This document shows positions 2,562 to 35,108 of a stretch of 43,388 nt of DNA, one piece after another (within the stretch, counting starts at the first letter, position 1; every line of letters begins with the position of its first letter). The stretch comes from a virus: positions 1 to 43,388 of IMG/VR virus record IMGVR_UViG_3300045303_000112. One strand, given 5' to 3'. The translations under genes and the position numbers were made by a program. The notes under the pieces are model-generated. The model was not told the origin of the DNA and made no database searches. It saw nothing but the letters and a program-made list of their open reading frames with translations.

Positions 2562-4100
2562 ATGGCACCTCCCAGTTTGATTGGCGCACGCTTGGCGCAG
2601 CCATCGGCGATTTCGGGCGGACAGGCGCGGCCAACTGCTGCTGCTCCAGCAGCAACGCTCGAAAACGTGCTCGCTCAGAACATCTACGGCATCGGCTATT
2701 CCCCTGGATACGCCTACGATGGCGAGGGCACCGTAACGGGATATGACCCATCGAAGAACACGCCCACGAACGATCCGCGGATCGCGCAGCTTGCGGCCAT
2801 GATTCGTTCAGCAGCGGGGCCGAACTATATCCCCGATGCCGCGACGCTCGCCAAGATCAACACTCTCACCACGCAGCAGTACCAGAGCAGCGGCGGGAAA
2901 GCGTCAGCGGGGAATACGCCTGCGACGGTGTTCCGGCTGATTAGCTCGACCGACCCGCAGTTGCAGCAGGCATACAAAGGCTTCGTTGCGACCCCGCAGG
3001 GCGCGCAGTTGGCGCAGCAGGGCCAGCAGGGACTAGACTACAAAGCACCATCTGGCAGCGGTAACGTGTTCGGGCCTGGCCTTGGAGGTATTTTGGGAGG
3101 GCTTGCAGCGGGTGCAGCGTTCCTGCCGGCGGCGGCGGGCGCGTTTGGTGCTGGTGCGCTCGGCGCGGGCGAGACAGCGGGACTTGGCAGCGGAATCACA
3201 GACGAAATGCTGCTCACCGGACAAGCGGCGGGCGCAGGCGGTACAGCGGCGGGCGAAGTTTCGAGCGGATTTTCAGGCATGGGTGCGGGGGCATTCGGTG
3301 CTGGCGTTCCTGCTGCTGTCGGGGCTGCCGCAGGTGGAGCAGCCGGCGGGGCGGCAGGTGGCGCTGCCGCAGGCGAGGTAGCGGGCGGAGCGGCGGGCGG
3401 TACAGCCACAGGCGCCCCGACAACCACCGAAGGGCTTGCCGCACCGGCCGCCGCACCAGCACCCACGCCGGTTACGCCGACGACACCGCCAGCGGGCAGC
3501 TTCGACACCGGCGGCTTTCAGAGCGTGTTCGATCAGGTCGCGGGGAATTCAACCAGCGCAGCCGCGCCAGCAGCAGGCGGGACCGGAACCACTCTTGCCA
3601 CCGAGACGCCAGCCGTCGCGCAGCCATCGCTCGCCGAGGGCACGGCGCAGACCGGGCTGAGCGGCACCGCGCCCACGCCGCAGTCCTTCCTCAATCCTGA
3701 ATTGGCCGATCCGACCGCCGGGATTGGCGATACCTCGGCGTTGGGGACCGGCACGGCGTCTTCGGGCGGTGGGCTCATCGACCAAGCGATGAAGTTCGCC
3801 GATCTTCACCCTGGGGCCGCAACGGCGCTCGGAACAGTGGCGGGAGGGGCCATTGGCGGTCTGGGCAAGGGCGCTGCCGAAGTCATCGCTGCCAACAAAA
3901 AAGCCGAGTCAGACAAGGCGCTGATCGATGCGAAACGGCAGGCCGATCTGGACCTTTTGAGCGGAAGAACTGCGCTCGCGCAGGCCAATTCTTTTAAGGG
4001 CAGCATCCCGTTTTCAGCCGCGCCGGGGCAGGTGTTGCGCCGGCCGGATGGCACACCCGTTTTTTCCGCGAACGGCTTGATCGGAAGTCGCGTTAGTTAA
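2562..4100 (+). CDS. Gly/Ala-rich virion-associated protein
   Basis: 512 residues. AAGGA (2551-2555) lies six bases before the ATG. Residues 1-165 are ordered-looking; residues about 170-300 are extreme Gly/Ala repeats (blocks such as AAGGAAGGAAGGAA), residues 300-400 are Pro/Thr/Ala linker, and a second Gly-rich hydrophobic patch (ATALGTVAGGAIGGLGKG) near residue 425 is followed by a charged helix. Glycine-rich hydrophobic stretches of this kind are common in phage ejection proteins that interact with the envelope. No enzymatic motif is seen. The gene ends 19 bases before the convergent end of the leftward DUF5710-like gene. Confidence 0.6.
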   Translation: MAPPSLIGARLAQPSAISGGQARPTAAAPAATLENVLAQNIYGIGYSPGYAYDGEGTVTGYDPSKNTPTNDPRIAQLAAMIRSAAGPNYIPDAATLAKINTLTTQQYQSSGGKASAGNTPATVFRLISSTDPQLQQAYKGFVATPQGAQLAQQGQQGLDYKAPSGSGNVFGPGLGGILGGLAAGAAFLPAAAGAFGAGALGAGETAGLGSGITDEMLLTGQAAGAGGTAAGEVSSGFSGMGAGAFGAGVPAAVGAAAGGAAGGAAGGAAAGEVAGGAAGGTATGAPTTTEGLAAPAAAPAPTPVTPTTPPAGSFDTGGFQSVFDQVAGNSTSAAAPAAGGTGTTLATETPAVAQPSLAEGTAQTGLSGTAPTPQSFLNPELADPTAGIGDTSALGTGTASSGGGLIDQAMKFADLHPGAATALGTVAGGAIGGLGKGAAEVIAANKKAESDKALIDAKRQADLDLLSGRTALAQANSFKGSIPFSAAPGQVLRRPDGTPVFSANGLIGSRVS

Positions 4101-4119
4101 TATGGGGAACGCCCAAGGT

Positions 4120-4326
4120 CTAGGAAGTCCGCCTGTTCTTCCTGCTCCTCTTTTTGCGCTTGAGCTTGCGCCAGGCGACGGCCAACTCCTTCGGCAACCA
4201 TTCTTTGAATTGCTCAAGGTCAATACCGTCAGGCACGTACCATTGTTTCCTACTCATGTCGAACCTGGCTCCGAGCGCCTTTGCGCGGTCCTTTTCAAAG
4301 ATCATTACGTTGATGTACGTCTTCAT
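4120..4326 (-). CDS. DUF5710-like small basic protein, moron-type gene
   Basis: 68 residues on the opposite strand to every neighbour. The N-terminal 45 residues have the pattern EKDRAKALGARFD...KQWYVPDGIDL..F..WLP, which I recognise as DUF5710, a small fold seen in phage proteins and appended to conjugative primases. The C-terminal 17 residues are almost all Lys/Arg (KLKRKKRSRKNRR), suggesting nucleic-acid binding. Start chosen at 4326 because the longer frame lacks family similarity. It is reached by leftward transcription from the promoter at 4658-4688 only if transcripts pass the hairpin at 4508-4599. Opposite orientation and isolation suggest independent acquisition. Confidence 0.75.
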   Translation of the reverse strand: MKTYINVMIFEKDRAKALGARFDMSRKQWYVPDGIDLEQFKEWLPKELAVAWRKLKRKKRSRKNRRTS

Positions 4327-4507
4327 GCGCGATCCCAAAGAACCGGCTCTTTCCCTCTTCTGAGCGCCCAGGCGCCAAGTAATCAAGGTACTCGTTTGCC
4401 CTCATTGAGGACCGTGTTGATAGCCGGTAGATCAGAGCACGGATTCTCTCTGTCCTGGGTTCACCCGAGATACGGTATGAAGCTAACGCGCCCTGACGGC
4501 GCGGCGC

Positions 4508-4599
4508 AAAGAAAAACCCCTACGGCTGGGTTCCGAGTCGCGGTCGAAAAGAGCAGACACCGAGTTGCTCAACACGACCGAAACCCATGCGTAGGGGTT
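4508..4599 (-). terminator. Long hairpin with trailing T-run (minus strand)
   Basis: The 10-bp outer arms are at 4515-4524 and 4590-4599, with imperfect inner pairing. On the minus strand the outer stem runs directly into five T then C and three T. It would terminate leftward transcription from the promoter at 4658-4688. On the plus strand it is followed only by CGTTTTCG, so termination there would be weaker. Confidence 0.6.
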
Positions 4600-4651
4600 C
4601 GTTTTCGATGTCATTTCGCGTTTCGACACGCGGCTCGTCCTTGCTCCGAGC
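4508..4651 (-). ncRNA. Candidate small RNA: promoter, long hairpin, U-run
   Basis: A transcript begun about seven bases after the TATAAT at 4658-4663 would run leftward through a long stem and stop at a U-rich run. The outer stem pairs AACCCCTACG (4515-4524) with CGTAGGGGTT (4590-4599) perfectly and is extended inward by TGGGTT/AACCCA pairing and CGGTCG/CGACCG. The stem is followed on the minus strand by TTTTTCTTT. There is no convincing ORF inside. Promoter, structure and terminator in about 145 bases is the layout of a small regulatory RNA; function and family are unknown, and it could alternatively be an attenuator for the DUF5710-like gene. Confidence 0.5.
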
Positions 4652-4657
4652 GAGGCA

Positions 4658-4688
4658 ATTATAGCGCAGTATTCTGAACGGCTGTCAA
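4658..4688 (-). promoter_or_regulatory. Sigma-70-type promoter, perfect hexamers, 19-bp spacer
   Basis: On the minus strand TTGACA (forward 4683-4688) is followed after 19 bases by TATAAT (forward 4658-4663). Both hexamers match consensus exactly; the spacer is two bases longer than optimal. It points leftward at the long hairpin and the DUF5710-like gene, against the direction of the structural genes. Confidence 0.6.
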
Positions 4689-4698
4689 GCGGGAAACG

Positions 4699-4803
4699 TT
4701 TGGTTTGGTTTTCAGGTTCTCTCTTAATGGGTTTGAAGTAGGAAAATGCCTTCACGAGTCTGAGGGTTTACGGTCTGAGCATGGAACAGTGCTCGGTGAC
4801 GCT
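4699..4803 (+). promoter_or_regulatory. Repeated leader element, copy A (before gene at 4819)
   Basis: This 105-base element matches, in reverse complement, the leader of the ERF gene (35004-35108). Shared parts are TTTGGTTTGGTTTT, then TTAATGGGTTTGA and GAAAATGCCTT (to about 4752), a 38-base variable part, and the exact 15-mer GTGCTCGGTGACGCT (4789-4803). The start codon of the structural gene follows 15 bases later. A third copy of the first half lies at 28700-28750. Its position just before start codons suggests a phage-specific promoter or leader; the mechanism is inference. Confidence 0.6.
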
Positions 4804-4818
4804 ACGGAGTAAGCAAAG

Positions 4819-5355
4819 ATGCCAGGATTAATTCAAAGCAGGATGCAGCCGCAACCCGACGAAGAACAAGGCGAGCAGCCCGGCGCCCCAGACGAGACCG
4901 AGGGCACCGAGCAGCCCGGCCAGCCGCAGCCAGGCGGTCAACAGGACTTCGAGCGCGTCGTCATTGCCGGCATGAAAGCGATCTACGCCGAGGGCGTCTC
5001 CGAGCAGTTGATCCAGATGATGCAAAAGGCGCAGAACCCGGCGCAGGGGCTTGCTACGGCGACCGCGCTGATTATGGGTGAGCTTGTGCGCCAGTCGCAG
5101 GGGTCGATGCCGCCGCAGGTGGTTCAGCCTGCGATGATGGACATCATGCGTTTCATCGGTGAACTTGCCGAGGCGGCGAAGATTCTGGACTCGACGCCGC
5201 AGTTGATCCAGCAGGCTTTGCCGATGGCCGCGCAAATGCTCCAGCAGGCGCAGCAGCAGGGCGCCCAGGCGCAGGCGCAACCGGGCGGCGCGCAGCCGCA
5301 ACCTCAGATGCCGCCGGCAGCGGCGCAACCTCAACCGCAACCAACTGGATACTGA
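4819..5355 (+). CDS. Gln/Pro-rich virion-associated protein
   Basis: 178 residues. The N-terminal 45 residues are acidic and Pro/Gln/Gly rich, the middle (about 45-150) is a helical Gln/Ala/Met-rich domain without charge clusters, and the C-terminus is a Pro-Gln-Ala tail. There are no membrane or catalytic motifs. The leader is the repeated 105-base element; a GGAG sits 12 bases before the ATG, far for a ribosome binding site. It ends one base before the next ATG (TGACATG), so the two are translationally linked. Placed with the ejection-type genes; specific function not recognised. Confidence 0.6.
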   Translation: MPGLIQSRMQPQPDEEQGEQPGAPDETEGTEQPGQPQPGGQQDFERVVIAGMKAIYAEGVSEQLIQMMQKAQNPAQGLATATALIMGELVRQSQGSMPPQVVQPAMMDIMRFIGELAEAAKILDSTPQLIQQALPMAAQMLQQAQQQGAQAQAQPGGAQPQPQMPPAAAQPQPQPTGY

Positions 5356-5356
5356 C

Positions 5357-6505
5357 ATGGCCGGAATTCTCGGAATGGCGTTGGCCAGATCAGTTGAAGG
5401 TCTCGGACAGGCCGGCGAAGCAGTCGGTCTCCAAGCCCAGAAGCAACTGGGCGAACTCGACCTCGACAAAGAGCGGCAAGCGGCTATCGCGGCCCGCGAG
5501 GAAACGCTTGCCCGCCTCCAATCGAGCTTGAAGATGGAAACCGCGCAGCCGCTCGCAGACATCGAGACCGCGGGCAAGATCAAAGTCGCGCAGAACACGC
5601 CGCGTCTTGTGCCAGAAGGGGTGACGGAGCGCATGCCTGGGGTGTCCGACTTCACCGCGCCGAAGACTGCGGTGCCCGAAGCGCCTGGGCAGGTTGAATT
5701 GCGAGCCGCGCAGTCGAAGAACTACGAAGCGCTCACCAAGCGCTGGAACGCCGAAGCCGACGCCATCTCGGAAGGCTTGAAGTACGGCAAAGCCCAAAAG
5801 CCGGTGATGCCCAAGATTTCGGTGGAGAAAGATGCCGACGGGAATCCGTACATGGTCGATCAGAATACCGGGGCCATCGGCGTCATCCGGCCAGGTGCGC
5901 CGGCCAAGCCGGAAGTCGGGCATTGGTTCTCGGCGAACGAACCGGCGACGCCAGCCGGCGCCCCGAGGGTGGATTGGAACCTGAACGGGCAACCGCTTGC
6001 GAACGGTCTCTCTGACGCTTACCCTGAGATCGCGGGCAAACTTCGAGGCGCGGTCCCTGCTGCTGGCTCTGCTGGCGCCCCGCCTGCTGCCGCGATCGAG
6101 CGCTTGAAGGCGAACGCGGACAACCCGAAAGCCAGGACCGACTTTGATGCGGTATTCGGCGCCGGCAAGGCCGATGCGATTCTCAACGCGCCTACAGCAA
6201 CGCCCGCAGCGCCCAAGACGCCAGCGAGGCCCGCTGCGCTTGTCACCCCGCGCATGGCGCAGCCCGCGCAGCCTGATATTCCCGCCGGGACCGATGTCGA
6301 TGCCGCGCGCAATGCGGTCTCTGCGGCAAGAGCGAAGCTCCAGACCTACGGCACCTTGAAGGCGAAGCAAGACCCGGCTGGTTTCGAGCAGGCGAAAAGA
6401 GACCTGGAGGACGCGCAAGGCAAGGCCGATCAGGCGCTTCAAGCCTACCAGCAGGCGCTCAGCGCGCCGACTGGCGCAGTGATTGGGTCAATCCGTAATC
6501 GGTGA
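5357..6505 (+). CDS. Probable ejection/internal virion protein with coiled coil
   Basis: 382 residues. The N-terminus (MAGILGMALARSVEGLGQAG) is an amphipathic Gly/Ala-rich helix; residues about 25-75 are a charged coiled coil; the middle is Pro/Ala-rich linker with a short ordered patch (EKDADGNPYMVDQNTGAIGV, about residues 155-174); and residues 310-365 form a second coiled coil rich in Ala, Gln and Lys. Its stop overlaps the GTG start of the giant gene (GTGA at 6502-6505), implying coupled translation. A virion role is inferred from composition and position. Confidence 0.6.
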   Translation: MAGILGMALARSVEGLGQAGEAVGLQAQKQLGELDLDKERQAAIAAREETLARLQSSLKMETAQPLADIETAGKIKVAQNTPRLVPEGVTERMPGVSDFTAPKTAVPEAPGQVELRAAQSKNYEALTKRWNAEADAISEGLKYGKAQKPVMPKISVEKDADGNPYMVDQNTGAIGVIRPGAPAKPEVGHWFSANEPATPAGAPRVDWNLNGQPLANGLSDAYPEIAGKLRGAVPAAGSAGAPPAAAIERLKANADNPKARTDFDAVFGAGKADAILNAPTATPAAPKTPARPAALVTPRMAQPAQPDIPAGTDVDAARNAVSAARAKLQTYGTLKAKQDPAGFEQAKRDLEDAQGKADQALQAYQQALSAPTGAVIGSIRNR

Positions 6506-9500
6506 ATCTGATGGGAATGTTCGACGACTTCGAGCACAACCCGGCCGATCCGGGCTCGTATCGGACTTACGAAGACCTGCGCGCCCGCGCGGCGCTCACT
6601 CCAGAGGAAAGCGCGGCGGATCAGGCCGACTCGGTATCGCCAGAATCGAAGGCAGCGCTTGAGCACGAGATTGCCAGGCGCGACCTGACGCCGAAGCAGC
6701 GCGGCATTCTCGAAGGCGAGTACGCGAGCAAGTTCGGCGGCGGTACGGCCCTGAACTGGATCGACGACCAGGCGCAGAACATGTTCGCCGAATTCGCGCC
6801 CAAGGCGAGCGCGCCGCCGCAGAACATGTTTGCCGAGTTTGCCACGGCGCCGGCGGCGAAACCCCAGGCGCAGGAGCCGCGCAGCCTGCTCAAGGAAGTG
6901 CCGCTTCAACTCTACGCCGGCGCAACCATCGATCTGCCAAAGCAGGTAGGGCAGGCGATGCAATGGATGAGCGAGCCGGGACATCCGGCCTACGAAAAGG
7001 GCCAGGCGCTCCAGGATTGGGCCGCGCAGCGCGAGAAAGAAAGCCCAGACCTTGCCCCACAAACCGAAGGCCGCGGGCTGATTGGCCGCGCGTTGTCTGC
7101 GGGTGCCCGCGCCATTGCGCCCTCGGTGGTTCCGATGGTTGCTGGCGCCGCACTCGCGCCGCTCGGGGTGGCTGCGGCCGGCACCGCGCTCGCTGCTGGC
7201 ACCTTCGGCCTATTCGGCGCATCCCAGGCGCAGGAGAGCTACGACAAGCTCATCAAATCGGGCGTTCCAGAGCCAGACGCGAGGCGAGCGGGCTGGATCA
7301 ACCTGATGATCGAAGGCGGCGGGGAGACGCTCGGAGACGTGGCCGGGCTGAAACTATTCGGCCTCTTCGGCAAGGCGCTTGGCAAGAGCGCGGTCGATAG
7401 CGCCATCAAGGGCGTGACCGATACCGCCGTATGGAAGCCCTTCATCACGCAGTTGCCGAAGACGACGGCGATTGAAGCCTCGACCGAATTCGGCCAGAAC
7501 TACGGCGAGGCGTGGGTCGAAAACAGGTTTGGCGCCGCCAACCCGGAACAGAACGACCCATTCGCGCAAGGCGTGCAGGGTGCCGAAGCTGCGCTCGGCA
7601 TGACGCTGCTGCTCGGCCCCTTCGGCCTCGCCGGTTTCGCATCCAGAGCGAAGCGTAACGGCAAAATCGCCGATGCGTTGACAGACCCCGATACGCCGGA
7701 AGCCAATCGCATCGCCGCGGCCAAGATCGTGTTTGACGAGATCAAGGCGGTAGACCCCAAAGCGGCGGCGGCATGGTCTGAAAACAGCACCGTGGCGATC
7801 CTTGGCAAAGCGCCGATCCTGCTCGATGAAACCACGGCGCAGAGCGATCAGAACCTCGTGCGCGGGATGCCAGTCGAACCCGCCTCTGCGGACGCCATCA
7901 CCAAGGACGGGCTCGCCAAAATCTCCGCAGCCCCCGACCTCGACACCGCTATTCAAGCCGCAGCCGATGCGACCAAAGGCCCGATTGTTCCAGCGGTGAT
8001 ACCAATCGTGCCGCCAAAGCGCGAAACGCCGCCGGGTATGGACACTTTTGGCGGGTTGATGGAGGACAAGACGCCGACGAACGCAGAAGACGAGGCGCTG
8101 AAACGCCTACAGATCGACCAGGCGCACGAAGAACGCGCGGCCCCGACCGCGATGGGCTCGGCCATGCAAGCGGCGCTCACGAAGCAGGACGAGCGCGACG
8201 TCACCGGCATGACGGACAAGGAATTGGACCTCGCGGGCAGGCTCACGCGCAGCGATGCGCGGCGGGCAGAGATTGCGGGCGAGCAGCAGAGACGACAGGA
8301 GGTGCAAGGTGCCAAGGCAGTACGAGGCGATACGCAACAAGCTGGCCAAGGGAGCGAAGGTGGACAGCCCGGCCTACAATTTGGCGCAGTCGAGGGCGGC
8401 GGCAATCTACAACAGCCAGCACAGGGACCGGCCAATGTCGGCGGCGCACCCGGAGGGGGCACCCAGACGCCCCGGCCTGATAATGTCGCGCTTAATCGGG
8501 CGCTGAATGCCGTCATACGGCGCCAGCCGGTTGCCAAGGACATCACGCCCTACCTGCTCAATGCGGGCCTTGCAACCACGCGGGACGACGGCACGCTCAA
8601 ACTGACGAACGCCGGATTTCGCGCACGCCAACAGACTTCGCGGGCAATCGCGCCCGCACCGGCGCCCGGATTGGCGCAACAACCAGGAGGCCAGAATGGG
8701 CAAAGGCAAGAAGCCCCCGAAACCGAAGTATTAGCGCCAGCACCACCACCAGCAGCCGGGGCTGCGGCTCCGGTTGCTGCGCCAACGCTTGCCGACATTC
8801 ATGCCTTGGCAGAATCCAAAGGCATCGACGTGGGCACGCCGGAATTCCGCGCGTGGACCCGAAAATCGACGGGAAAGGAGCACCTTGACGCTCTCAACCC
8901 GACTAAGCGCAAGATTCTGTTCGAGAGGTTGAAGGCGCGGCCAGCGGCGGCTGGAACCTCACCTGAATGGGTAGCCTTCCCGCCAGAATCCGGCACCCTC
9001 GGCGTGCCGCGTGCTGACATGCCCCAAATTGCGGCCGAACATCGTGGTGCCTTGGTGAATTTTCTCGAAGCGCGCGGCGTCACGCATCACCAGGAGGAAG
9101 TGCGCGCCGATTCGTTGAAACCGACACAAGCCGAATACTCGCCAGCCAAGGTCGAAAAGGCGCAGAAGTTCGAGGGCGGAGACCGCTCGATTCTTGTCAG
9201 CAGCGACAATCATATCGTTGACGGCCATCACCAGGCCATTGCGGCCGCTCGAGCGGGCGAGCCGATCAACATCATCCGGCTGAATGCGCCGATCGCGCAG
9301 TTGCTGCCGCTCGTGCGAGAGTTTCCGTCAGCGACTACAGCGCCCGCTGGCACCGCTGCGCCCGCTGCCAAAGCCGCTGTTGCGCCAGCACCCCAGGCCA
9401 AGGCAGAGCCTTCTACCGAAACAGCCGTAACTGCCAAGCAGCAGCTATTTGTCAGATGGGGCGGTCAGACGCATCCAGTCGAATCTTTGCAGGACGCGAG

Positions 9501-12500
9501 CGAGAAATGGGAAGCCTTCCGCGACAAGGCAGGCGCTGGGGTATCTGAGGTTGGTAACGGTGTGAGCATTGTTGACCAGACCGGTAAAGAAGTCGCCAGG
9601 GTGTCGTACAACGGGCGCGTGTGGCCAGCAGGCGAGCACAAGCGCGGGAATGTGCCGCTCTATGTGCCGGAGGGCGAGAAAGGACCAGCCAAGGTTGAAA
9701 CGCCGCCGACTGTTCCACGGGAAACCGCTGCGCCGGCCGAAACGAAAGCCGCCGCGTCGAAACCTGAAACAAAGCCAGCCGCCGAGCCCAAGGCCAGCGA
9801 CATCCTGAGCATGAGCAGCGCCGAGTTTGATGCCCTGATTGACGAGGTGGTGGCTGAGCGCCGGGCAGCGGCAGCCGAACCCGCGCCGACCAAAGCCGCC
9901 ATCATCCCGACGCGTGCCGGAATCGTTGTGCAGCCGCTCGACGAGAAGGGAGAGCCTGCCGGGCCAGCGCACCAGGCTGGAGAGAAGCCGGTAGAAGCAG
10001 CGCCAGCCTCGCGCGAGCAGCTCATTGCCGACCTTAAGGCGAAGGGTTTCGATGGCACGATAGACCGCCTCAATCGCGGCACGATTACCGAAGCCCAAGC
10101 GCGCGACGAATTGACCGGGAAGCCCAAACCAGGCGAATTCAAGCGCGGCCAGCGCGTCGAGTACGTCAGCGGCAAGTACGAAGGCCGACACGGCGAGATC
10201 GCCGAAGCGCACGCCTTCCGCTGGTCAACCGGCTTCGGGCAAGTCAGTGAAAGCCAGATGTCCTACGAGGTCAAGACGGACAATGGCGGAACGGTACACG
10301 CAAGTCAGGCCGAAATCCGCGCTGAAACAGCCAAACCGGAGCGCGTCGTCGCCGATGTGAAAGTCGGGGACCGCTGGACGGACCCAGAGCACGCCTACAG
10401 CATGATTGGCTACTACGAGCGCGGCGCGGCCGGCGACCGGGCGGCATCATCGAGGGCAAAGAAACCCGATATGAAGGCGAAGTGGCTGCGCAACGCGGAA
10501 GTGAAGGACGCGGACGCCGCCAGATACCGCGATGCGTACAACGAGTGGGCGACTCGCTTTCCTGACGAGGCCGCAAAGATAGCGCCGCCAGTGGCAGCAG
10601 CCCAGACCGCGCCGACAAGCGTTCCGTCCGCTGCCGGCGCTCCTTCCATGACGCTGACCCAGACCAAGCACACAAAGTCCGGGGCCGATCTTTGGGTGGT
10701 GAAACTGGGCGAGCGCGTGGACGCCGGCACGTTCTCAGCCTTGAAGGCGAAAGCCACGCGCAACCACGGCATCTGGTCGAACTTCACCAAGGGATTCAAC
10801 TTCACGACGCCGGCGGGGGCCGAGGCGTTCATGGGCAAGCCTGCGACGCCTGCGGCAGGACCAAGCATCGAACGCGGAGACGTGGCGCGCGACTTTCTCG
10901 CCGGCGGGCGCGGCGCGGTGCTGCCGGAGCAGCCGACTCCGCAGGCGCCACCATTGGCCGGCATGACGCCGCTTGGGGCACAGCCCTATGCCGGAACGAA
11001 CTGGCAGCCTGTCGGGCGCAATATGAGCCCAGGCGCGGCAATGAGCATCCTGACGACCGGGACGCGGGTGCGCAATCACAGCGGCGCAGAGGGGACCATT
11101 CAGGAATGGGAGAAAGGTGACGGCGATAGCGTCCGCGTGCTATTTGATGGCAACAAGAACGTTTTTTTGTACGATGGTCGCGAACTTGATTTCGATCCTC
11201 GTGGCGCGGCAAGCCCAGTCAAAACCGCCGCCCAGATCGCAAGCGAAGCCGCTGCGGGCCGCAAGGTGCTCGAAGACCTGTTCGGACGTAAGGATTCAGC
11301 CCAGGTAGCCGCAACTCCCGCAGTCCCCGTTGCCGCCTCGCTCGACGTCGTTCTGACGGACGAGGACAAAGCCGATGCCGCGCAGGCCCTGGGCGACAAA
11401 GCATGGTCAGATGGGACAGCCAAGAAGTTCCTCCAAGGCTACGCCGAATGGCTCCAGCAGGGCGCGAAAGAACTCGCTACCGCCTTAGGCAAGCTCTACG
11501 CCAAGGTGCTCGCAGCCGCCCGCGCGGGCTTGCTCTCCATCGCCGTCGCCTTCAACTTCAATGCCGCGCAGCATGTTCCATCCTTGTCGATGCCGGTCAC
11601 GCAGCAGACTATCACGCAGGCGGTATCTTGGGGCGAGGATAAGTATGCGGTGCGCGAGCAACGCACGCCTGCCGGGCGCTTTGCAAGCCGCGCCAAGGGC
11701 GACTTCGACGATGAGATATGGGCGAAGGTCAGGCCGGCGCTGGATGCCAATTTCGCTGAATTTACGGCAACGGGCGGCAATCCGAAAGATTTTGTGCGCC
11801 AAGTGTTCGCCACCTATAATGAAAGCATCATCCCCTACCTGAGAAGGTGGCACAAGGAATCCGCGCATGCTGCAACTGGACCCGGTAAGCCTGAAAGCCC
11901 TCGGCCGTCGCCACTGGAAGGAGTTTTGCCCGAAGAAATACCACGACTTGAAGGAGGCGGGGCAACTGGAACAGGCCCTAGACTCGGCGGTGGCGCTCAC
12001 GCTCCAGGCGATACAGGAGGACCGGGAGGCGGGCTACACCCCGTACCAGGCGTGGGAGAAGGAGCGGGAACTGTACCTCCTGCTCCCGGAGGAGGAAGAC
12101 CCGCAGGAGGAACAACCGGACAATCCGGCCTACGACAGCCTGGCGGAAATGAACCGGGCACTCGACCAGGAGAGCTAGTCCCGCAGGCAGAGAATTTCGT
12201 CATCACCGACGAACTGGAGCTTGGCAAGGGCACCTCGATCCAGAAGTACGAGGACAACGTCGCGGCGATCAGGCTCCTAAAGCAGATCGAAGCCGAGAAC
12301 CGGGACGCGACGCCAGAAGAACAAAAAACGCTCGCCCGCTACGTCGGATGGGGCGGCATCAAGGAAGCCTTTCCGAATCCGAACAACCCCGCAAGAAAAG
12401 GATGGGAGCGGCGCGTCGCCGAGATCAAGGACTTGCTCACCGAGGATGAGCATGACGCCGCCGCGCGCAGCATCCAGGATGCGCACTACACGAGCAAGCC

Positions 12501-15500
12501 CGTGGTGGACATCATGTGGGCGATCGCGGGGCGCTTGGGGTTCGACGGCGGCAAGGTGCTGGAAAACTCCATGGGCGTCGGGAACTTCTTCGGCCTCATG
12601 CCGGCGCAGTTGCGCACAGGTGCGACCCTGACCGGGATCGAACTGGACAATATCACCGCGCGCATTGCGAAGCAGCTCTATCCCAAGGCCAACATCATCG
12701 GCCCCATCGGCTTCGAGGATGTGAACCTCGCCGACAACACCTTCAATCTCAACGTGGGCAATCCGCCCTTCGGCAAGGGCACGCCTTACGATGCCAATTC
12801 CAAGCACCTGAACGGCTTCACCACGCACAATTTCTTCTTCGCCAAGGCGATCGACAAGCTCGCGCCCGGCGGGCTGCATATCCAAGTGGTGTCGCGCTAC
12901 CTGATGGACGCGCAAACGAATCCAGCGCGCGAGTACATCGCGCACCGCGCGGAATTGATTGGCGCGATGCGCCTGCCGTGGACCGCCTTTTACAGCACGG
13001 CGGGCACCGAGGTAGTGACCGACATTATCGTGTTACAAAAACTCGAAGAACGCGATTGGGGCCGCGCAGACGACTCGTGGACCAAGACGACGATGATTCC
13101 CGACCCGCTTGGCGGGGAGCCCATGCGCGTGAATCAGTATTACGCCGATCACCCGGAAATGATCGTGGGCCAGATGAACCGCTCGGGCGAGATGGTGATG
13201 GAGAACGACATCACCGTGCAGCCGGAGGACGGGATTCCGCTAGAACTTGGCCTGATGCAGCGGGCGATGAACTTCCCCGACGACATCTACCGCCGCGGCA
13301 AGTCCGAAGCCGACGTGAAGGCTGAATCCGATGCGGCCGTATCGGCGCCGGCGGAGACCATCGAGCAGCACGCCATCGGTTCCTACTTCGAGGAAGGCGG
13401 CAGGCTCTTGCAGCGCGTGATGACGCCCGATGGTTCGCTGCGCGCCGAGGAAATCACCGCAGCCTCGATCTGGAAGGACGTAAAGCCCGGCGTAACGACG
13501 AAGAAGGGCGAACTGAAAACCCCGAGCACCTGGGGCGAGACGCGCATTGCGCGCGTGCGCGGCATGGTACACATCCACGAAGCGGAAATGACCCTGCTCA
13601 ATGCCGAGAGGAACGACGCCCCGGATGCGGAGCTAAAAGCGCTTCGCGCCGTGCTGAATAAGGTCTACGACAAGTACGTCGCCGAGCATGGGTTCCTGAA
13701 TCAGCGCGAGAACGAACTGGCCTTCCGCGCCGATAGCGTTGGCTCGCCAAGACTCCTTGCCCTGGAGCACAACTTCGACGCAGGCGTATCCAAGAGCGCG
13801 GCAAAGCGCCTCGGCATCAAGGAAAAGGCGCCTACAGCCGAGAAGATGCCGATTTTCACGACGCGGCAAGTCGCCCCCTACAAGGCCCCGGACAAGGCTG
13901 CCAACGCGATCGACGGTCTTGCCATATCCATCATGGAAAAAGGCAGCGTCTCCGTCCCCTACATCGCCAAGCTCACCGGCATGGGCGAGCATGACATCGT
14001 GCGCGATCTGACCTCCGGGGAGAAGCCGGTTGCATACTTCAACCCCGCGTCGAAAACCTACGAGACGGCACCGATGTACCTCTCGGGCAACGTCAAGCGC
14101 AAATACCAGGAAGCGCGCGAGGCGGGGTTGATGGAGCAGGCCGAAGCCTTGAAAGCGGCGTTTCCGCCAGATGCCAAGGCGGGGGACATCGTGGCGCGCA
14201 TGGGCGCGGGCTGGATTCACCGCGATGTCTACGCCAAGTTCGTGCGCCACCTGCTAGGGGAAGAAGCGGTTGCCGAAATAATCTTCCTGCCCGCGACGGG
14301 CGGCTTTGCGGTCTCGACCCACGGCGGCGATGAGGTGATGGTCGGAACCAAGTGGGGCTCGCCGCGCCGGGACGCGCACGATCTCATTTCGCGCATCCTC
14401 AACAACAAGGACATGGCCGTCTACGACACCGATTCGGACGGCAAGCGGGAGATGAACAAGGCGGCTACGGAAGCCGCGCAGGAAAAGGCCGAGCAAATCC
14501 GCGAGGAATTCATGGATTGGGTCTTCAAGGACTCCGACCAGCGCGAGGCGCTCGTCTCCTTCTACAACGAGAACATCAACACCCACGTCGGGCGCGAATG
14601 GGACGGCGACTATCTCACGCTGCCGGGTAAGGTGCCAGATGCAATCATCACCCTGAACCGGCACCAATTGAATGCGGTAGCGCGCTGGATCAGCACCGGC
14701 AAGATACTGCTCGATCATGTCGTCGGATCAGGAAAGACCTATACCATCATCGCCGCAACGATGGAGATGCGGCGCATCGGCCTCCTGAAAAAGCCAATGA
14801 TCGTCGTTCCAAACCACCTCGTTGAGCAGTGGGCACAGGCGTTCTACCAACTCTACCCAGGCGCCAACATCCTCGCCATGCGTAAGGCCGACTTCACCAA
14901 ACAGAACCGCAACAAGATGCTCGCCCGCGTGGCGACCGGGAACTGGGATGCGGTCATCTTCTCGCACTCGTCCTTCGGATTCATTGCAAACGAGCGGGGC
15001 ATTCTCGTAGCGGCGATCAGGGATCAGATTGCCGAACTGCAAGCGGCGATCGATGCCGCGCGCAAGACCGAGGGCGCGAAATCGCGCACGGCTGCGCAAT
15101 ACCAGAAGTCGAAGGAGAAGATGCAGCAGCGCATGAAGGCGCTCTTGGACAAGCCGAAGGACGAAACGCTCACGTTTCAGCAGTTGGGAGTGGATCAAAT
15201 TACCGTCGATGAATCGCAGGAATTCAAAAACCTGTTTTTCACCACGCAGCGCCGCGGTGTCGGCGGCTTTGGCAACCCGACCGGCTCCAAGCGCGCATTC
15301 GACATGTACATCAAAACGCAATGGCTGCAAAAAACGCAGAACGGGCGCGGCGTGGCCTTTGCGACCGGAACCCCGATCTCCAACTCGCTCACCGAACTTT
15401 TCACGCTCCAGCGCTACCTGGGCCTGGATGAATTGAAAGCACGCGGCATGGTGTCCCTCGACGCCTGGCTCGCCGCCTTTGGCATCACCGAGACCGACTA

Positions 15501-18500
15501 CGAATCGAATGTGACCGGAACAAAGTACAAGCGGAAGGAGCGCTTGCGCCGGATCACGAACGCGCCCGAGATCATGCAGCTCTACAAGCAGTTCACCGAT
15601 TCGGTCACGCAGGCCGATGTGGAGCGCAATTACCGTGAGGATCACGAGGGCAAGGCATTTCCGATTCCGAAGGTGAAGGGCGGCAAGGCGCGTCAGAACG
15701 TCACGGCGAAGGCGACGGCGGCGCAAAACGCTTTTTCCGAGCAACTCAACAACCGGATGGACCATCTGCCATCCGACCCGCGCATCGACAATGCGTTGAA
15801 GGTGCTCACGGACGGGCGCAAGGCTTCGCTCGACATGCGCCTGATCGACCCGAGTCAGTCGGATGAACCTGGGTCCAAGATTCACGTCGCGGCGGACAAT
15901 ATCTACCGCATCTATGCCGAAAACACGCACCGGCTTGGCACGCAACTCGTGTTTTGCGACCTGTCCACGCCCAATAAGCACGGCAAGAAGGATGCCGCTA
16001 AGTTCTTGAAGGAGGCGCGCGAGATACTGGACGACAAGGGCGCCGCGCCCTTTGGCGACCTGCGCCAGCAATGGCGCGAACTGCGCTCTCGCATCCAGGA
16101 GATGTACGACACGATGGATGAGGCCGAGGGCGACCAGCGCTCGATCGACCACATCGAGAAGTTCCTTGCCCAACACGACGACATCGACGCCGCCGTCACC
16201 AATGCGGACCTGAATTTCTCGATCTACGACGACATGCGCACGAAGTTGATCGAGCGCGGCATCGCGCCGCACGAAATCGCCTTCATCCACGACTACAACG
16301 GCGATGCGCAGAAACAGGACTTGTTCGATGCGGTCAACGCTGGCCGGATTCGCGTGCTCCTGGGATCGACGGCGAAGATGGGCGCGGGGACCAATGTGCA
16401 GCGCAGGATGGTCGGGCTGCACCATCTGGACGTGCCATGGCGCCCATCGGACATCTTGCAGCGCGAGGGGCGCATCGTGCGGCAGGGGAACTACTTCCGG
16501 TACAACCCGATCACGCGGGAGGATAACCCCGGCTTCGAGGTCGAAATCCTCGCCTACGCCACCGAGCCATCCTCTGACGTGTTCATGTGGCAGGCGCAGG
16601 AACAAAAGCTCGTGGCGATCGAATCCATCTCCCGCTACCACGGCGAGCGCGAGATCGAGGACGTATCGGGCGAGTCCATGAGCGCATCCGAAATGAAGGC
16701 GCTCGCCTCGGGCAACCCGCTGATCCTGGAGGATGTGAAGCTCACCGAGGAAATCCGCAAGCTCGAAGCCTCGCGCGCACGCCACCGATCGACCGAGCAG
16801 GACTTGGAATCGGAGGTTGCGCGCTACCAGCGCTACATCGACCAGCTTCCGGCCGTCATTGCGCGCCAGCAAGACTTGTCGAACCGCATCGACGCCTACA
16901 AGGCCAACCCATTCGAGGGCAAGCGGCCCACGGCGCAGATCGACGGCAAAGAGGTCAACGCCGAGCAGGCTTGGGAGCATATTGCCGAAGTCAGAAACGC
17001 CGCCCTGATGGCCGCAGCCGAGGCCAATGCGCCAGCCAGAACACAGCAAAAAATAATTGAAGAAAAAACACAAGCCGTCAAGCTCAACTCGCCTGAATTC
17101 AAGGCGCTGGAGGCCGAACATAAGGCGATCGAGAAGGCGCTTATCAAGCCAAAATTCGAGGTCACGTTCGCAGGCAAGGTCTACCGCGGCGTGGAGAGCG
17201 CACAAAAGGCCGTCACGGACAAGCTCGGGGACCATGATGCTATCCGCTTCGTTCTGGATGGCAAGGACTACATCCGCCGCGCCGACATCGAGGCGCACAT
17301 CGATGATGTGGTGCGCGACTGGGCTTCCAATATGGAAGGCAGTGCGACGCTCGGCACAGTCGGCGGCATTCCGATTGAACTTGCCTGGATCAACGATCGC
17401 CTCGGCAACGGCATCAAGGTCACGATCGGCGGGGAAGTGGAATACGCCGAGCACGGCACGAAAAAGAGTTTCATCGGCCAGCCCTACGAGGTCAAGGCAG
17501 ATGGCGATATGGTGCTGCGTTTGATCCAAAAAATCCTGCGCGAGACCAAATCCAATCTCACCGGAAACAAGGAGAGCTACCAGAAGGCCCTGAAAGGCAT
17601 CGCCCCGTTGAAGGCGCAGATGGGCAAGCCATGGGGCAAGGATGTGGACCTGGCGAAGAAGAAGGCGCGCGCTGCCGACGTCCGCAGGGAATTGGCGGGA
17701 CAGGCGCCGCCCGTGCTGGATGCGACAAAGCCCGTAGGCCACACGATTCTAGGCACGCCGATCTACATCGGCGACATCGTTCGGATGAAGACCGAGACCA
17801 TCGACGGGACGAAAGTCGGCGGGGAAACCTTCACCGTGACCGGGGCGACGTGGGAAGGTAGCAAGAGGAACGAGCGCTACATCCAGGGCCAGGATACCCG
17901 CAACACGACGACATCCTACAGTTACCACGTCGAGAACGTGGCCGAAGTCATCCCAGGGGATCGGCCGGGAGTCACGCAGGAATCGGCTGATGCCGCTGGA
18001 ATGGGGCCGTCGCGCCGGGCCGCTGCCCCTGCGCCAATGTCGGATGCCAATCTTCTGAAATTCCGTGCTATCAGGATGGGCGAGGGTTTCCAACTCGTGC
18101 CCTCGTTCAGCGACGTTCAACTGGCGGCTGCGCCGGGCTTTGATTTCTTCGCGCACCGCAGGGACGACAAAAACAGGACGTGGAACATATCCGAGCGCAG
18201 CACTGGACTTCACTTTGGCGCAGTAGGGGACACCAAGAAGGAGGCCATTGCAGAGGCCGAGCGGATCATTGGCGAAGTCGGCGTAGAGAAACTGCAATCG
18301 GCGATCGACGGGGCGCCGAAGATCACGCCGGAGATTCTGCGCAGGCTGGTGCTTGGTGCTGGCGAGAGCGGCACTGCGGCGCAAATCCAGCGCAGCGGCC
18401 TCCTGAACCAACCGAACGAATCCGCCCTCCTTGATCCGTCAAAGGCAGAAGCGGCCAAGGTGCAGGCCGGCATCGAAGGCAAAACCGTCCTCGAAGCGGC

Positions 18501-21500
18501 GCGCTTCATCGCGGCCACCGGGACAGGTTTCCAGAAGATCATCGCAGGCAAAATAGTGCAGGCCATCAACAGGCTCCAGACAGCCGGCGTCGTTTTCGAT
18601 TTGAAGCTCGCGCACGTAGGCGACACCGTTCCGCGCGCTTTGCTTCCCGCCCGCGGCATCACCGCCTGGAACTTCGCCCCGAACAACAACACCGTCACCG
18701 TTTGGATCAACGCAAGCGACGTGACCGGCAAGGTCGGGACATCTTACGAGACCGTGCTGCACGAGTTGGTTCATGCGGCGACGGTTGCGATCACGCACCT
18801 CGGGAACCGAAAAGCGGCGATCGGCTACAAGTCGGCGCAGGACGTGCGCGACCTCTACGCCGTGACAAACCACGTCATTGCGCACTTCAACGCGAGGGTG
18901 GCGGCGGCGAAAGCTGGAAAGACCACGCTTACCGACTTCGAGGACAGGCTGCATCGGGGCGCATCCAACGCCTTTACGAACCCGGATGAAACGCTCGCTT
19001 GGGCGCTATCGAACCCGCAGGCGCAGGCGTACCTGGAGACCGTCCCCTATCCTGAGCACAAGTCCGCATGGACCGCGTTCGTGGACGCTATCCGCAGGCT
19101 CCTGGGCATTCCGCGTCATGCAGCCACGGCTTTCTCCGAAGTCCTGCGCATTTCCGAGAACCTGATGGGCGACAACGCGAATGAGTTGCTTGGGATCGCA
19201 TCTGACCAAGGGAGCACCGAGGCTCAGACGCGGGCCGGGAGCGGGGTGTTGCAGCAGGCCAAATTCATTGGAAAATTCCCGAACATAGATAGTAACCCGC
19301 GTACCGTTTCTGAGATGAAGGCAAGGGCTGCCAAACACGCAGCAGAACGCGCGACAGCGGGGCAGGATCAGACCGAGGCCGCACGCGAGGCGGCGGGGAT
19401 AGCCAAGCCGGCAAGCGAGCGCGGCGAAAACTACGATCAGGCGTGGAAAGAGTACAGCGCGCTTCCTGGAGTAGATGCTGACTATTTAGGGAGGCCGAAG
19501 ATATCCGATTTGGTTGCGGGAGCGCAATTCGAGTTGGACATCGCAGGCGAAGGCGAAATAAAGCATACGCCGAAGCAGTCAGCGCGCATTCGCGCATTCA
19601 TTGAAAAATGGACCGGCGCGGAAGAATCGCAGCCCGCCAGCTCGCAGGAGCAGGGCGGGACGCTCGCCCACCGCTCCACCGCCTCCGAGCGCGTCTTCGA
19701 GACCGTGCAGAAAGCCCCCGTAGTTGGCAACTGGCTCTCCGCGCAGTTCAATTCTCCCGCCTCCTTCGGCATCCTGAAACCGTTCAACACGCAACTGCAC
19801 AAAGCGCTGACGCTCGCAAAGCAGGGGAAGCCCGAATTCAAGCGCGTATTCGATAAGCTCCAGGATTTTCTGAGCGACACAACGGCGCTCGCCGTTCATG
19901 CCGAGCAGCAGGCACCGACCATGTTCCGCGAACTGACTGGGCTTGGCGCGAAGTCGGTCAAGAACTACCTGGGTGCCGCGAAGACCGAGGACATCAACGC
20001 CATCGGCCCATGGCTCAACTACGGCACGCTCTACGGTGGGCCAAGCCCGATGGACGGCATCGTCTGGACCGACAAGGAACTGGCCGGCGACTTCGCGGGT
20101 TCCAAGCGCGTCAAGCCGCGCGTTCCGCCGCTCACCCTTGAACAGATCAAGCTCTACCACGAGGCGCGTGCCGCCATCAACACCTCGGTTGAGACCGGCG
20201 CCAAGTCGGCGATCTTCAAGAACGTGGAGAAATTCGGCATCACGTTCGACAAGTTCGATAGCCTCGACCGCGTGGCTGCCGAGGTGAAGGACCAACTCAC
20301 TGAGTTACGCAATGACGCGCACATCCGCTACCAGCAGCAGGAAGACATCACCAACACCGCGCACGAGGAATCGCAAACCGCCGGCGACGCGGCCAAAGCG
20401 CGGCCAAAGGACCGGCAGTTACGGGTTGCCGCCGAGAACGCCCGCGCCAACTACGAGAACGAGCAAAAGGCGCTGGACGATATTCAGAAGGACATCGATA
20501 CGTTTGACAGGCTGATCGGGACCAAGGATGAACCCGGCACGATCGACCAGATTGGTGACGTGGCCCACGGCCTGATCGAACACGGATACGCACCCCTTAA
20601 GCGATTCGGGAATCGCACGGTGACGGCCTACGACAGCACCGGCAAGGCGCGCTTCTTCGGCGCGTTCGACGGCACGCCGCTCGTGCCAGGCTCGGCCAAC
20701 GCCGAAATGCAGCGCGTGGCCGTGCAGATCAAGGCGCTGCACCCTGAATGGGACGTGGTGACGGGCGTGCGCGACGAAGAGGCGTGGAAGATGTACCAGG
20801 GCTTGAGTTTGGATGCCCTTGAGAACTTCCTCGATCTCCTGCCCGCCGAGACGCAGGCCGAGATCAAGCGCGATCCGATTGTTCAGGAATACCTCAAAAA
20901 CTCGGTCAACAACCGCAGCGTGTTGAAGGAACTGATCCACAGGAAGGGAACACCTGGCTTCTCGACCGACGTGGCGCGCGTGGTGGCTTCCTTCATGACG
21001 AGCCATGCCCGCGCGGCGAGTTCGCTCTACCACATCGGCGCGGCAAAGAACATGGTGCAGGACATCCCGCAGGAGCAGGGCGATGTGCGCGACGAGGCGG
21101 CAAAATTGGTCGATTACGTGACCAAACCGGGCGAGGAAGCGGCAAAACTGCGCGGATTCCTGTTTTTTCACTTCCTTGGGGCTTCGGTTGCCGCTGGCGC
21201 TGTCAATCTGACCCAAACGCCGATGATGACGGTCGGTTATCTGAACAAGTTCGCCTCGTTGAAGGACGTGACGGCGCGCATCCTGGCGGCATCGGCAAAG
21301 GCCGTCATGGACCCCATCGGCATCAAAGGGGCGCTCGGCCAGGCGCTCGTGCGCGCCGAGCGCGAGGGCATCACGGCGCCGCAGCAGATTCACCACTTGA
21401 TCGGCATCTCGGCGAATAACCCATTTTCCAGCAACCGGGCTTTCCGCGGCTTCATGAACGTGTGGGGCAGCATATTCGGGGCAACGGAGGTATTCAACCG

Positions 21501-28669: not shown

Positions 28670-28723
28670 ACCCCAAAACCTTCCCGAACCCCTCCGGACG
28701 GCATTTTCTAGGTCAACCCCATT

Positions 28724-28764
28724 AAAAAAAAGTCAGAACCAAACCAAGCAAATCGCCTTGGTTT
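28724..28764 (-). terminator. Candidate leftward terminator
   Basis: Perfect 8-bp stem AAACCAAG (28741-28748) with CTTGGTTT (28757-28764), loop of eight, followed on the minus strand after nine bases by eight T. The gap before the T-run is unusual, so termination is uncertain, but it is well placed to end the leftward early operon. Confidence 0.4.
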
Positions 28765-28785
28765 AGGTAGCAACACCGGGAGAGC

Positions 28786-28811
28786 GCACGCGCGCCCTGA
28801 GCGTGCTTTTT
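28786..28811 (+). terminator. Intrinsic terminator of the late operon
   Basis: GCACGC (28786-28791) pairs with GCGTGC (28801-28806) around a nine-base loop and is followed by five T. It lies 117 bases after the endolysin stop. The same hairpin is preserved in the second repeat copy (35135-35159, followed by four T). Confidence 0.65.
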
Positions 28812-28973
28812 CGTAGGGATGGCTTTGCGCAGGCGAAAGCCGAAGAAAAGCTAGTTGGCCAGAATCGTACACCCTGATTCCACCACGGAAGGCGATACCG
28901 GATTGTGAAACGGCTTTTGCCTATGAAAGCGCGCGCGAAAATAATGCTTGACGGCACAATCCGGGATGTCCCG

Positions 28974-29132
28974 CTATCCGGTTTCGCGTTCCGCATCGTG
29001 AAATGCAGGATCAGTCTGCTCAGCGAGGTACATCTCGATCGCCTCGGCGACCCCGCGCAAATTCTCGTCATCGCCGCACAGTTCGAGAACAGCTTCAAAT
29101 AGCTTAATCAAGGTTCGCTTTCTCAGTTTCAT
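28974..29132 (-). CDS. 52-aa acidic helical protein, paralogue 1
   Basis: ATG at 29132 on the minus strand. Product MKLRKRTLIKLFEAVLELCG continues with VAEAIEMYLAEQTDPAFHD. It differs from the product of 35322-35480 at only four positions (Ile/Leu 9, Asp/His 21, Asn/Asp 24, Ala/Val 47 by my hand alignment). Most differences between copies at DNA level are silent or conservative, indicating selection for the protein. The competing longer ORF on another frame (28763-29098) has a Ser/Arg-rich translation and is rejected. Function unknown; last gene of the leftward operon. Confidence 0.65.
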   Translation of the reverse strand: MKLRKRTLIKLFEAVLELCGDDENLRGVAEAIEMYLAEQTDPAFHDAERETG

Positions 29133-29166
29133 AAGGTGAAATCATATACCGCGCGCGCCTGACCGC

Positions 29167-33613: not shown

Positions 33614-34221
33614 TTTCTGACCTCGTGCGGTTTGCGCAGCGTCAAATCTGGTCCGCCCTTCGGATTCTTGATTGGCGTTCCAGCCAGCACCGCATCGAAT
33701 AATTGCTTGGTAATTGCGATGTCGTTCAGACAATAGTCTATTACATCGCCTATTTTCCCTTGCTGCCACAGTACCGGAGCGAATGCGCCGCTGCCAGATT
33801 TGCCCGTTCCGAAATTGGCCGCACATACCGCGTCCAAGCCGTAGCCGCCATGCGTCTTGAAATTGAATTCCGGGCCGAGTCCATCTGCCGCCCATATCTC
33901 CCGCAGCAGGTCGTAGCACTCTTCCTCCAGTGGTGCGGTCCATCCCGGCGTTGCGTCGATCAGCTCGTTGTCGAATGGGATACTGTTGAACCCTATGCAC
34001 AAGTCTCGTCCGCGCCAGAGCACCGCAAATTCCTCCGCATTGTCGGCGCAGAACACGCGGGCGCGGTCCTCAAGATAGTCATACACGCCAATTACGGAAA
34101 TGCCCATGTTCTCGAAGTCGCGCCAGCCGGCGCAATACTGGATACCGTCAATCGTGGAACCGTCCCTATTCGGAATAGCCTTGACGATTTCGCAATCGTA
34201 AATAATCGCGTTCAGTCTCAT
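33610..34221 (-). CDS. DEDD-type 3'-5' exonuclease (RNase H fold)
   Basis: 203 residues, start at 34221 supported by an AGGGAGAA motif. Exo I motif is YDCE (Asp9, Glu11); Exo II is GFNSIPFDNELI with its Asp; Exo III is YCLNDIAITKQLF with YC-x3-D spacing. These are the metal-binding residues of DnaQ-like exonucleases. Located between the ERF and coiled-coil genes, it probably trims 3' ends during recombination or replication. Length is typical of stand-alone phage members. Confidence 0.75.
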   Translation of the reverse strand: MRLNAIIYDCEIVKAIPNRDGSTIDGIQYCAGWRDFENMGISVIGVYDYLEDRARVFCADNAEEFAVLWRGRDLCIGFNSIPFDNELIDATPGWTAPLEEECYDLLREIWAADGLGPEFNFKTHGGYGLDAVCAANFGTGKSGSGAFAPVLWQQGKIGDVIDYCLNDIAITKQLFDAVLAGTPIKNPKGGPDLTLRKPHEVRK

Positions 34222-34982: not shown

Positions 34983-35003
34983 TTTTCCCCCTTTTGGAAC
35001 TCC

Positions 35004-35108
35004 AGCGTCACCGAGCACCGCGCCCCGCGATCACCGAAAAACCGCAAACCCGTAAAGGCATTTTCTCAGTCAAACCCATTAAAATAAAACCTTAAAACCA
35101 AACAAACC
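35004..35108 (-). promoter_or_regulatory. Repeated leader element, copy B (before ERF gene)
   Basis: Reverse-complement partner of 4699-4803: TTTGTTTGGTTTTAAGG, then TTTTAATGGGTTTGACTGA and GAAAATGCCTTTACGGG, a divergent part, and the identical 15-mer GTGCTCGGTGACGCT (forward 35004-35018). The distance between the conserved halves is 38 bases in both copies. The ERF ATG follows 21 bases later. Copy C, at 28700-28750, has only the first half. Confidence 0.6.

Follow-up and report, generated by a model that had tools for sequence, protein, structure and literature searches.

How does a phage genome come to carry one and the same noncoding stretch ahead of two unrelated genes, and what could such a stretch do there? 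The window, by which we mean the whole stretch of DNA analysed, is one entire virus record of 43,388 bases without end repeats; the genome itself runs past it, as a related contig (G012) matches positions 1-1927 at 89% identity and then continues for about 16 kb further leftwards. An earlier note on this DNA had described an element of about 105 nt, present in two full copies and one half copy, and had proposed that it may be a phage-specific promoter or leader linking unrelated genes in one regulon.

Copies of the element and their distribution

Four distinct copies of the element were compared:

4699-4803, plus strand: copy A, full length, with a T-rich tract, the AATGGGTTTGA..AAAATGCC core and the 15-mer
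35004-35108, minus strand: copy B, full length, 21 nt before the ERF gene
28700-28750, minus strand: copy C, limited to the first half, after which comes a hairpin of another kind (UCCGGA/UUCGGG), also present in copy D; identical in the relative G002
about 4051-4165 of contig L081 (relative G003), minus strand: copy D, found by a profile of A, B and C

The repetition claimed for A and B is borne out, the local score of the pair being 54, whereas 2000 dinucleotide shuffles of the pair reached 18 at most and 30 shuffles of A, set against both strands of the window, 17 at most. BLASTN gives 76.6% identity over 111 columns (E 1.9e-17 in the window's own record), and the alignment of these two 105-nt copies has a single gap, within the first half. 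The 15-mer GTGCTCGGTGACGCT is likewise found as described, its only two exact occurrences in the window being 4789-4803 (+) and 35004-35018 (-), 15 nt before the ATG at 4819 and 21 nt before the ATG at 34982, and the first half does recur at 28700-28750 (-), with 80% identity over 50 nt and a score of 28 against a null maximum of 18. Aligned together, the four copies have in common a T-rich stretch, the core AWTGGGKTTGANNNAG(N)AAAAYGCC, 13-19 variable nucleotides and GGKTTT; beyond this point A and B share the remainder including the 15-mer, whereas C and D share the hairpin instead, the two hairpins (UCCGGA/UUCGGG and UCCGGA/UCCGGA) having two differences that keep standard RNA pairs on the element's strand.

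The 15-mer by itself means little as a mark. Its 52 exact matches in IMG/VR are about the chance expectation for an assumed collection size of tens of Gb, and only that in L013, a record of the same phage, is homologous by profile. Among ten contexts viewed, those in L021, L025, L034 and L050 are one shared intergenic region with an 18-19-nt match to A, which we took as chance. Upstream of ERF its reading frame stays open across the 15-mer (GTG CTC GGT GAC GCT; window 34218-35018, minus strand), but the corresponding frame of copy A meets a stop after seven codons, which makes it improbable that the 15-mer extends the coding sequence.

The element is rare even among relatives. The profile built from A, B and C was run against nine of them (G001, G003, G012, G013, G019 and L013 whole; G002, G015 and G016 nearly whole) and yielded copy D in G003 and a copy identical to C in G002, so that, with L013 (99.99% identical to the window over 8,270 bases), three of the nine relatives' contigs carry it, and G001, G012, G013, G015, G016 and G019 gave no match, G001 despite an ERF 87% identical to that of the window. 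Two BLAST searches for the element found the same three among 18 records, a 19-nt match in G008 being taken as chance. There are thus three copies in the 43-kb window and one each in G002 and G003. A pattern of the core occurs in six IMG/VR stretches, three of which belong to this phage group (L013, G002, G003); two of the others are one unrelated phage, and the last lies inside a 661-aa ORF. A wider gapped pattern gave 13 stretches, genuine by profile only in G002 and G003. In 84,980 bacterial and archaeal genomes the core pattern occurs 26 times, against an estimated 15 or so by chance, and none of these cellular stretches resembles the phage copies outside the core; the best of them, L132 (profile E 2e-5, a value that includes the pattern match by construction), lies inside an apparent coding sequence. 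Named phages gave no match to the element, its flanks, the window (in two pieces) or the noncoding RNA (ncRNA) gene described below, and named plasmids, for which the ncRNA region was the only query, gave none to that region. One further search matched one virus (two records), in coding sequence outside the element.

Inserted DNA and the genes behind the copies

All four distinct copies are intergenic, in a window of which about 7% is noncoding by a hand-made gene list (D was judged from sequence, and mechanical ORFs crossing the copies were not counted as genes), and in three of the four (A, B and D) a start codon of like orientation follows the core at a distance of 70-90 nt. The features concerned are these:

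4101-4818: probably inserted DNA, from the end of a 512-aa gene (4100) to the start of the 178-aa gene (4819), by comparison with G015
4819-5355, plus strand: 178-aa gene behind copy A, with a homolog in G015
34218-34982, minus strand: gene for an ERF-like ssDNA-annealing protein behind copy B, by sequence match
34983-35968: insertion between a 56-aa gene (35969-36139) and ERF, absent in G002 and G003, with copy B as its downstream edge
35322-35480, minus strand: 52-aa gene within the DNA inserted ahead of copy B, paralogous to that at 28974-29132
28974-29132, minus strand: the corresponding 52-aa paralog ahead of copy C, followed by a noncoding block of which a duplicate lies upstream of B
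28722-28766, minus strand: candidate terminator of the leftward genes, a 10-bp hairpin CUAAACCAAG/CUUGGUUUGG with a T-run 8 nt on, at the 5' end of copy C
28789-28811, plus strand: site resembling a terminator, behind the endolysin gene and convergent with copy C, from a sequence scan

In both G002 and G003 the 56-aa gene and ERF overlap (ATGA) without the element between them. In the window they are separated by 986 bp, comprising three small ORFs in the direction of the operon and then 339 nt, which end with copy B and the ribosome-binding site of ERF. Among ten ERF relatives, a same-strand ORF of at least 40 aa ends no more than 83 nt from the ERF start in all ten, compared with 339 nt in the window, and overlaps ERF by 4 nt in six; these spacings rest on mechanical ORF calls and on ERF starts that are partly estimated. 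None of the ten has the leader directly before ERF, copy D of G003 lying about 650 nt upstream of that gene. In G001 another small gene, overlapping by 4 nt, separates the 56-aa homolog from ERF and the element is lacking, which implies that genes inserted there need no element. In the window, at 36789-37200, a minus-strand ORF contains a 15-bp tandem repeat in 19 overlapping registers, and its product has pentapeptide-like repeats.

At copy A the comparison is with one distant relative. The homolog of the 178-aa gene in G015 (29% identity, E 2e-10) begins 9 nt after its upstream gene and is not preceded by the element, while in the window the gap before the 178-aa gene is 718 bp with copy A at its end; the genes upstream of the two homologs are not detectably homologous. 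DNA has probably been inserted ahead of the 178-aa gene, as judged from this single comparison, and of the two putative insertions that before ERF appears clear and that before the 178-aa gene thin. Further along the same strand, a 5355-aa ORF at 6502-22569 (+), with matches to DarB-like antirestriction, methyltransferase and helicase proteins, encodes a giant polyvalent protein.

Copy C stands apart, after the last leftward gene and tail to tail with the endolysin gene, so directed into the 3' end of the latter that there is no gene for it to drive. The copies are not confined to dead regions, a term that among the four distinct ones would suit at most the position of C. Copy D belongs to the ERF operon of G003, where it precedes an unverified small ORF and where relatives differ from one another; the DNA before copy D (L081 about 4200-4510, minus strand) is apparently noncoding and has long inverted repeats.

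The reading that we tentatively prefer, at somewhat short of an even chance, is that the element is a cassette-edge leader, which insulates and restarts an operon split by insertion. Accessory DNA would have entered operons that stay continuous in relatives, and at each insertion site the element would stand last before the ribosome-binding site of the next operon gene, its T-rich, partly terminator-like 5' part closing the upstream unit and its conserved core and 15-mer region supplying a weak or phage-activated start together with the 5' leader of the next gene; the element itself would spread through recombination between copies, plausibly aided by the phage's own ERF/YqaJ pair. We infer the restart from position alone, because the element has no clear promoter on its own strand, and likewise the insertion at A, termination and the role of ERF. 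Three things count against this reading: copy C has nothing to restart, G001 has an insertion without the element, and the terminator part is weak.

Self-contained inserted cassettes are familiar in phages as morons, and the likeness extends to extra DNA between genes that are adjacent in relatives and to a promoter-like site of its own (the ncRNA promoter at A); here, however, the recurring part is the junction sequence before the next operon gene and not the cassette. The repetition of the element at the edges of inserted DNA might also recall a decayed end of a mobile element, a reading that is already disfavoured and that we hold to be very improbable, seeing that no repeat pair of at least 12 nt was found at the insertion ends (4060-4840 and 34960-36000 searched), no transposase was recognised in the inserted DNA (a subset of small ORFs scanned), and the DNAs inserted at A and B share only the element, among the largest repeat families.

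Recombination, promoter and RNA-leader alternatives

The noncoding block before B is that before C, at 88.9% identity over 198 nt, each with its 52-aa paralog (the duplicated block of 52-aa gene and about 200 nt of noncoding DNA covers 28700-29135 and 35060-35483 of the window, before C and B, respectively). After the shared block B is A-like to its end, and C changes to the hairpin common to D, such that B looks like the upstream block of C joined to an element of type A. Flanks are thus shared by B and C upstream, by A and B over the downstream half, and by C and D in the hairpin, and these seemingly chimeric copies suggest recombination. The phage encodes an ERF-like annealing protein together with a YqaJ-type exonuclease; for the Erf/Exo pair of phage D3, one report describes recombination of 78%-identical DNA about as well as by lambda Red (PMC3945230). 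Between the window (37739-38302) and G003 (L081 4512-5075), 564 bp are 100% identical amid nearest flanking matches of 79% and 83%, which implies a recent exchange between the two; the block overlies the 5' part of an HNH endonuclease gene and could reflect recent exchange or homing.

The same facts could be accommodated by the nearest rival of the edge module, namely a recombination linker devoid of any regulatory role, a crossover sequence used or inherited in the swapping of cassettes. That every copy has its own combination of flanks, that B resembles a join of C's upstream block to an A-type element, that an exchange with G003 appears recent, and that G001 carries an inserted gene before ERF without the element would all fit such a linker, which we nonetheless consider rather unlikely, because it leaves unexplained why three of the four copies have a start codon 70-90 nt further on, in the same orientation, and why an exact 15-mer lies beside the ribosome-binding site.

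Next in line is a promoter. The statement that the element lacks a clear σ70 -10 box holds: a consensus scan gave no site in the element, its only hits for B and C being plus-strand sites some 160-170 bp away, with none for A, and no -35/-10 hexamer pair spaced by 15-19 nt was found on its own strand, the nearest -10 being GAAAAT. With a σ70 matrix, scanned over both strands, the best own-strand scores are 5.5 for A, 8.2 for B, 5.8 for C and 7.4 for D, corresponding to the 75th, 95th, 79th and 92nd percentiles among 150-bp segments, compared with 15.0 for a divergent site at 4688. A phage-specific promoter, or one for an alternative sigma factor of the host, serving a small regulon through the core, would account for the retention of that core in four copies with different flanks, for TTGAC in B, C and D, for the AT-rich stretch upstream and for the leader position of A, B and D. 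We regard it as unlikely: although B reaches the 95th percentile, there is no clear -10, copy C drives nothing, and the element is missing in six of the nine relatives' contigs, including 18.5 kb of the near relative G012; furthermore, no PF00940 RNA polymerase was found in eight records (the window and seven relatives, as fragments), in a search whose controls were silent too. Of the earlier proposal, then, there remains a directional, intergenic element placed as a leader ahead of two unrelated genes and lacking a clear -10; a phage-wide promoter or single regulon does not accord with so few copies, with their lack in most relatives, with their absence directly before ERF in all ten ERF relatives and with the position of C.

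The suggestion that covariation might reveal an RNA structure finds no support in A and B. As full copies they fold no better than shuffles (z 0.14 and 0.38), the strongest hairpin of A is absent from B, and the two folds differ; a shorter stretch of A, 4726-4820, has z -1.42, which 19 of 200 shuffles match, and the equivalent stretch of B has z -0.04. The noncoding block shared by B and C folds with z from -1.7 to +0.9. In the 5' part of the element the hairpin z is -3.2 in C, -2.3 in A, -0.5 in D and +1.5 in B, and A, B and C each have a terminator-like site (by eye clear in C and weak in A and B), D having none; of 200 composition shuffles per copy, 49 yield such a site for A, 76 for B, 60 for C and 122 for D.

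These values bear on the idea of an RNA leader for processive antitermination, akin to the put sites of phage HK022, or of some other kind. Two 105-nt leaders do head two long runs of genes, one of them before a 16-kb gene, and putL and putR are likewise two related copies, of about 70 nt, ahead of long gene runs in one phage, according to PMC9378689; A and B differ from them in having no conserved two-stem structure. With full copies folding at chance, where only 4726-4820 leans otherwise, and with half an element alone at the end of a gene run (C), we think an RNA leader improbable.

Lineage-specific repeats of a comparable kind are known from the cluster K mycobacteriophages, in which, as described in PMC3203893, the SAS is a 13-mer that recurs many times per genome in most subclusters, and the ESAS consists of two 17-bp inverted repeats and mostly keeps its place ahead of the same gene families from phage to phage; no function is shown for either in the passages concerned. 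The likeness lies in asymmetric intergenic repeats just upstream of the start codons of unrelated genes (for A and B, 15 and 21 nt before the ATG), with a second conserved part further upstream. The element differs from what is described there in its one to three copies, in having no inverted repeat and in not being kept before the same gene, being absent directly before ERF in the ten relatives and before the 178-aa homolog in G015; inspected by eye, the alignment of A, B, C and D does not contain the cluster K consensus GGGATAGGAGCCC with its 17-bp inverted repeats.

The structured RNA gene beside copy A

The DNA probably inserted ahead of copy A contains, on the opposite strand, a gene for a structured ncRNA:

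4658-4688, minus strand: best σ70-like site of the window, TTGACA-19-TATAAT, pointing away from copy A at a distance of 10 bp
4509-4657, minus strand: structured, pseudoknotted ncRNA of about 145 nt, by model match
4508-4524, minus strand: terminator-like 3' end of the ncRNA, the last stem arm CGTAGGGGTT and a T-run
4120-4326, minus strand: DUF5710 gene of 68 aa downstream of the ncRNA, with a homolog downstream of the ncRNA in L143/L158

The core of the ncRNA (4505-4612, a stretch ending in CGTAGGGGTTTTTCTTT) folds with z -5.6 against 60 shuffles. A pattern for the first arm of its long stem occurs in 22 IMG/VR stretches, 21 of which have an ncRNA homolog (20 further contigs and L013); these loci are L141 to L161 except L146, the one stretch without a homolog, and give, with the window, 16 distinct sequences. 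The best promoter site by the matrix ends 56-64 nt before CCCCTACG in all 21 ncRNA copies (duplicates counted), its -35 beginning with TTGAC in 20 of the 21 and its -10 being poor (CAATCT) in L150, L151, L160 and L161, and the gene thus has its own promoter-like site at a nearly constant distance, as read from sequence.

The structure was examined in an alignment, A1, of 16 distinct sequences and 43 pairs, with 500 shuffles that ignore relatedness. Paired cells amount to 92.1%, against 82.9% in shuffles and 33-49% when the strands are slid; 17 of the 43 pairs are altered on both sides, and not one of the 500 shuffles reaches the observed value of any of five measures of compensatory change. 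The invariance of the first strand of the long stem is there by construction, since the search pattern fixed most of its letters; the second strand lay outside the scan pattern, and although extraction required CGTAGGGGTT, none of the 20 loci failed. In the helix formed by the stretch before CCCCTACG with the loop after the GAG stem, all seven of seven pairs show change on both sides and five pairs show all four Watson-Crick types, an eighth pair being weak (8 of 12 cells); taken singly, the 16 sequences form this helix with 5-15 bp, at individual P values that range from 0 to 0.85. In helix c, which is GTGATGG/CCATCAC or a variant of it, 78% of cells are paired. As these two helices cross the long stem, the ncRNA is pseudoknotted. 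Helix a (GGTCGC/GCGACC) has three pairs with two-sided changes and one pair unpaired in 7 of the 16 sequences; its 5' strand has a second possible partner, inside the first hairpin, and the window shows both partners altered together with that strand, an alternative pairing which hints at a possible switch.

No Rfam 15 family matches the ncRNA at gathering score in the window, the 20 further loci or L013, SNORD46 in the window lying far below threshold (15.4 bits against 40, in a search with E up to 5). The A1 covariance model, run over 643,041 bases from 49 other sources, matches nothing beyond the window and L013, where weaker shadows appear on the opposite strand. Overlapping samples of cellular genomes, searched under strict filters with no positive control, contained the ncRNA in 0 of 399 from the order of L132's genome and in 0 of 398 from its phylum. 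The region of copy D in G003, considered as a second ncRNA copy, gave no model match (E up to 1), its likeness to the ncRNA locus being limited to the stretch behind the ncRNA (79% over 58 nt, located before copy D). Conversely, the profile of the element gave nothing convincing at the ncRNA loci (best E 2.2), for which reason the element and the ncRNA gene are neighbours in this phage and no fixed pair.

Other neighbours vary. DUF5710 lies downstream of the ncRNA in the window and in L143/L158, and the Rfam family RF02932, Betaproteobacteria-1 RNA, starts 10 nt behind the ncRNA in L149 (7026-7145, plus strand) and 6 nt behind it in L156 (2545-2664, minus strand); in both contigs a structured RNA thus directly follows the new one, but the matches lie beside and not over it, and no RF02932 match was reported in the window. 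A literature search by the name Betaproteobacteria-1 found no paper. Elsewhere other stretches, common to pairs of contigs, follow the ncRNA, as if downstream partners were exchangeable. Type III toxin-antitoxin RNAs consist of tandem pseudoknot repeats followed by a ToxN/CptN/TenpN-like toxin; the ncRNA is a single unit, with no such toxin among 20 proteins scanned near it. Judged against Rfam 15 and the literature by keyword only, it looks like a new class. A PHROGs scan of ten proteins picked within about 2.6 kb of the ncRNA gave three RecE-like exonucleases, two DNA methyltransferases, two primases or primase/helicases, one ParB-like protein, one terminase and one without a match, and this proximity to recombination and replication genes in several contigs suggests that the ncRNA may act early in infection.

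Taking both parts together, we lean, with rather less than even confidence, towards a joint reading, in which a new class of phage ncRNA, of about 145 nt and with its own σ70 promoter, at least two crossing helices and a possible 5' switch, is accompanied by an element that serves as edge module for cassettes inside operons. One crossing helix would then be hypervariable and kept solely by compensatory change, the ncRNA would reside in unrelated neighbourhoods of phage contigs, sometimes with DUF5710 or directly before the Betaproteobacteria-1 RNA, and the element would let such cassettes, and others, enter operons without silencing the genes downstream.

Whatever the element does, the ncRNA is a conserved, clearly structured RNA outside Rfam 15, and it can be approached directly by experiment through its pseudoknots, its hypervariable helix and its alternative 5' pairing. 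Should the element prove to be an edge module, it would show how essential phage operons, here before a recombinase gene, can take up extra DNA and stay unbroken, and it would provide a sequence with which such insertion into operons could be tested.
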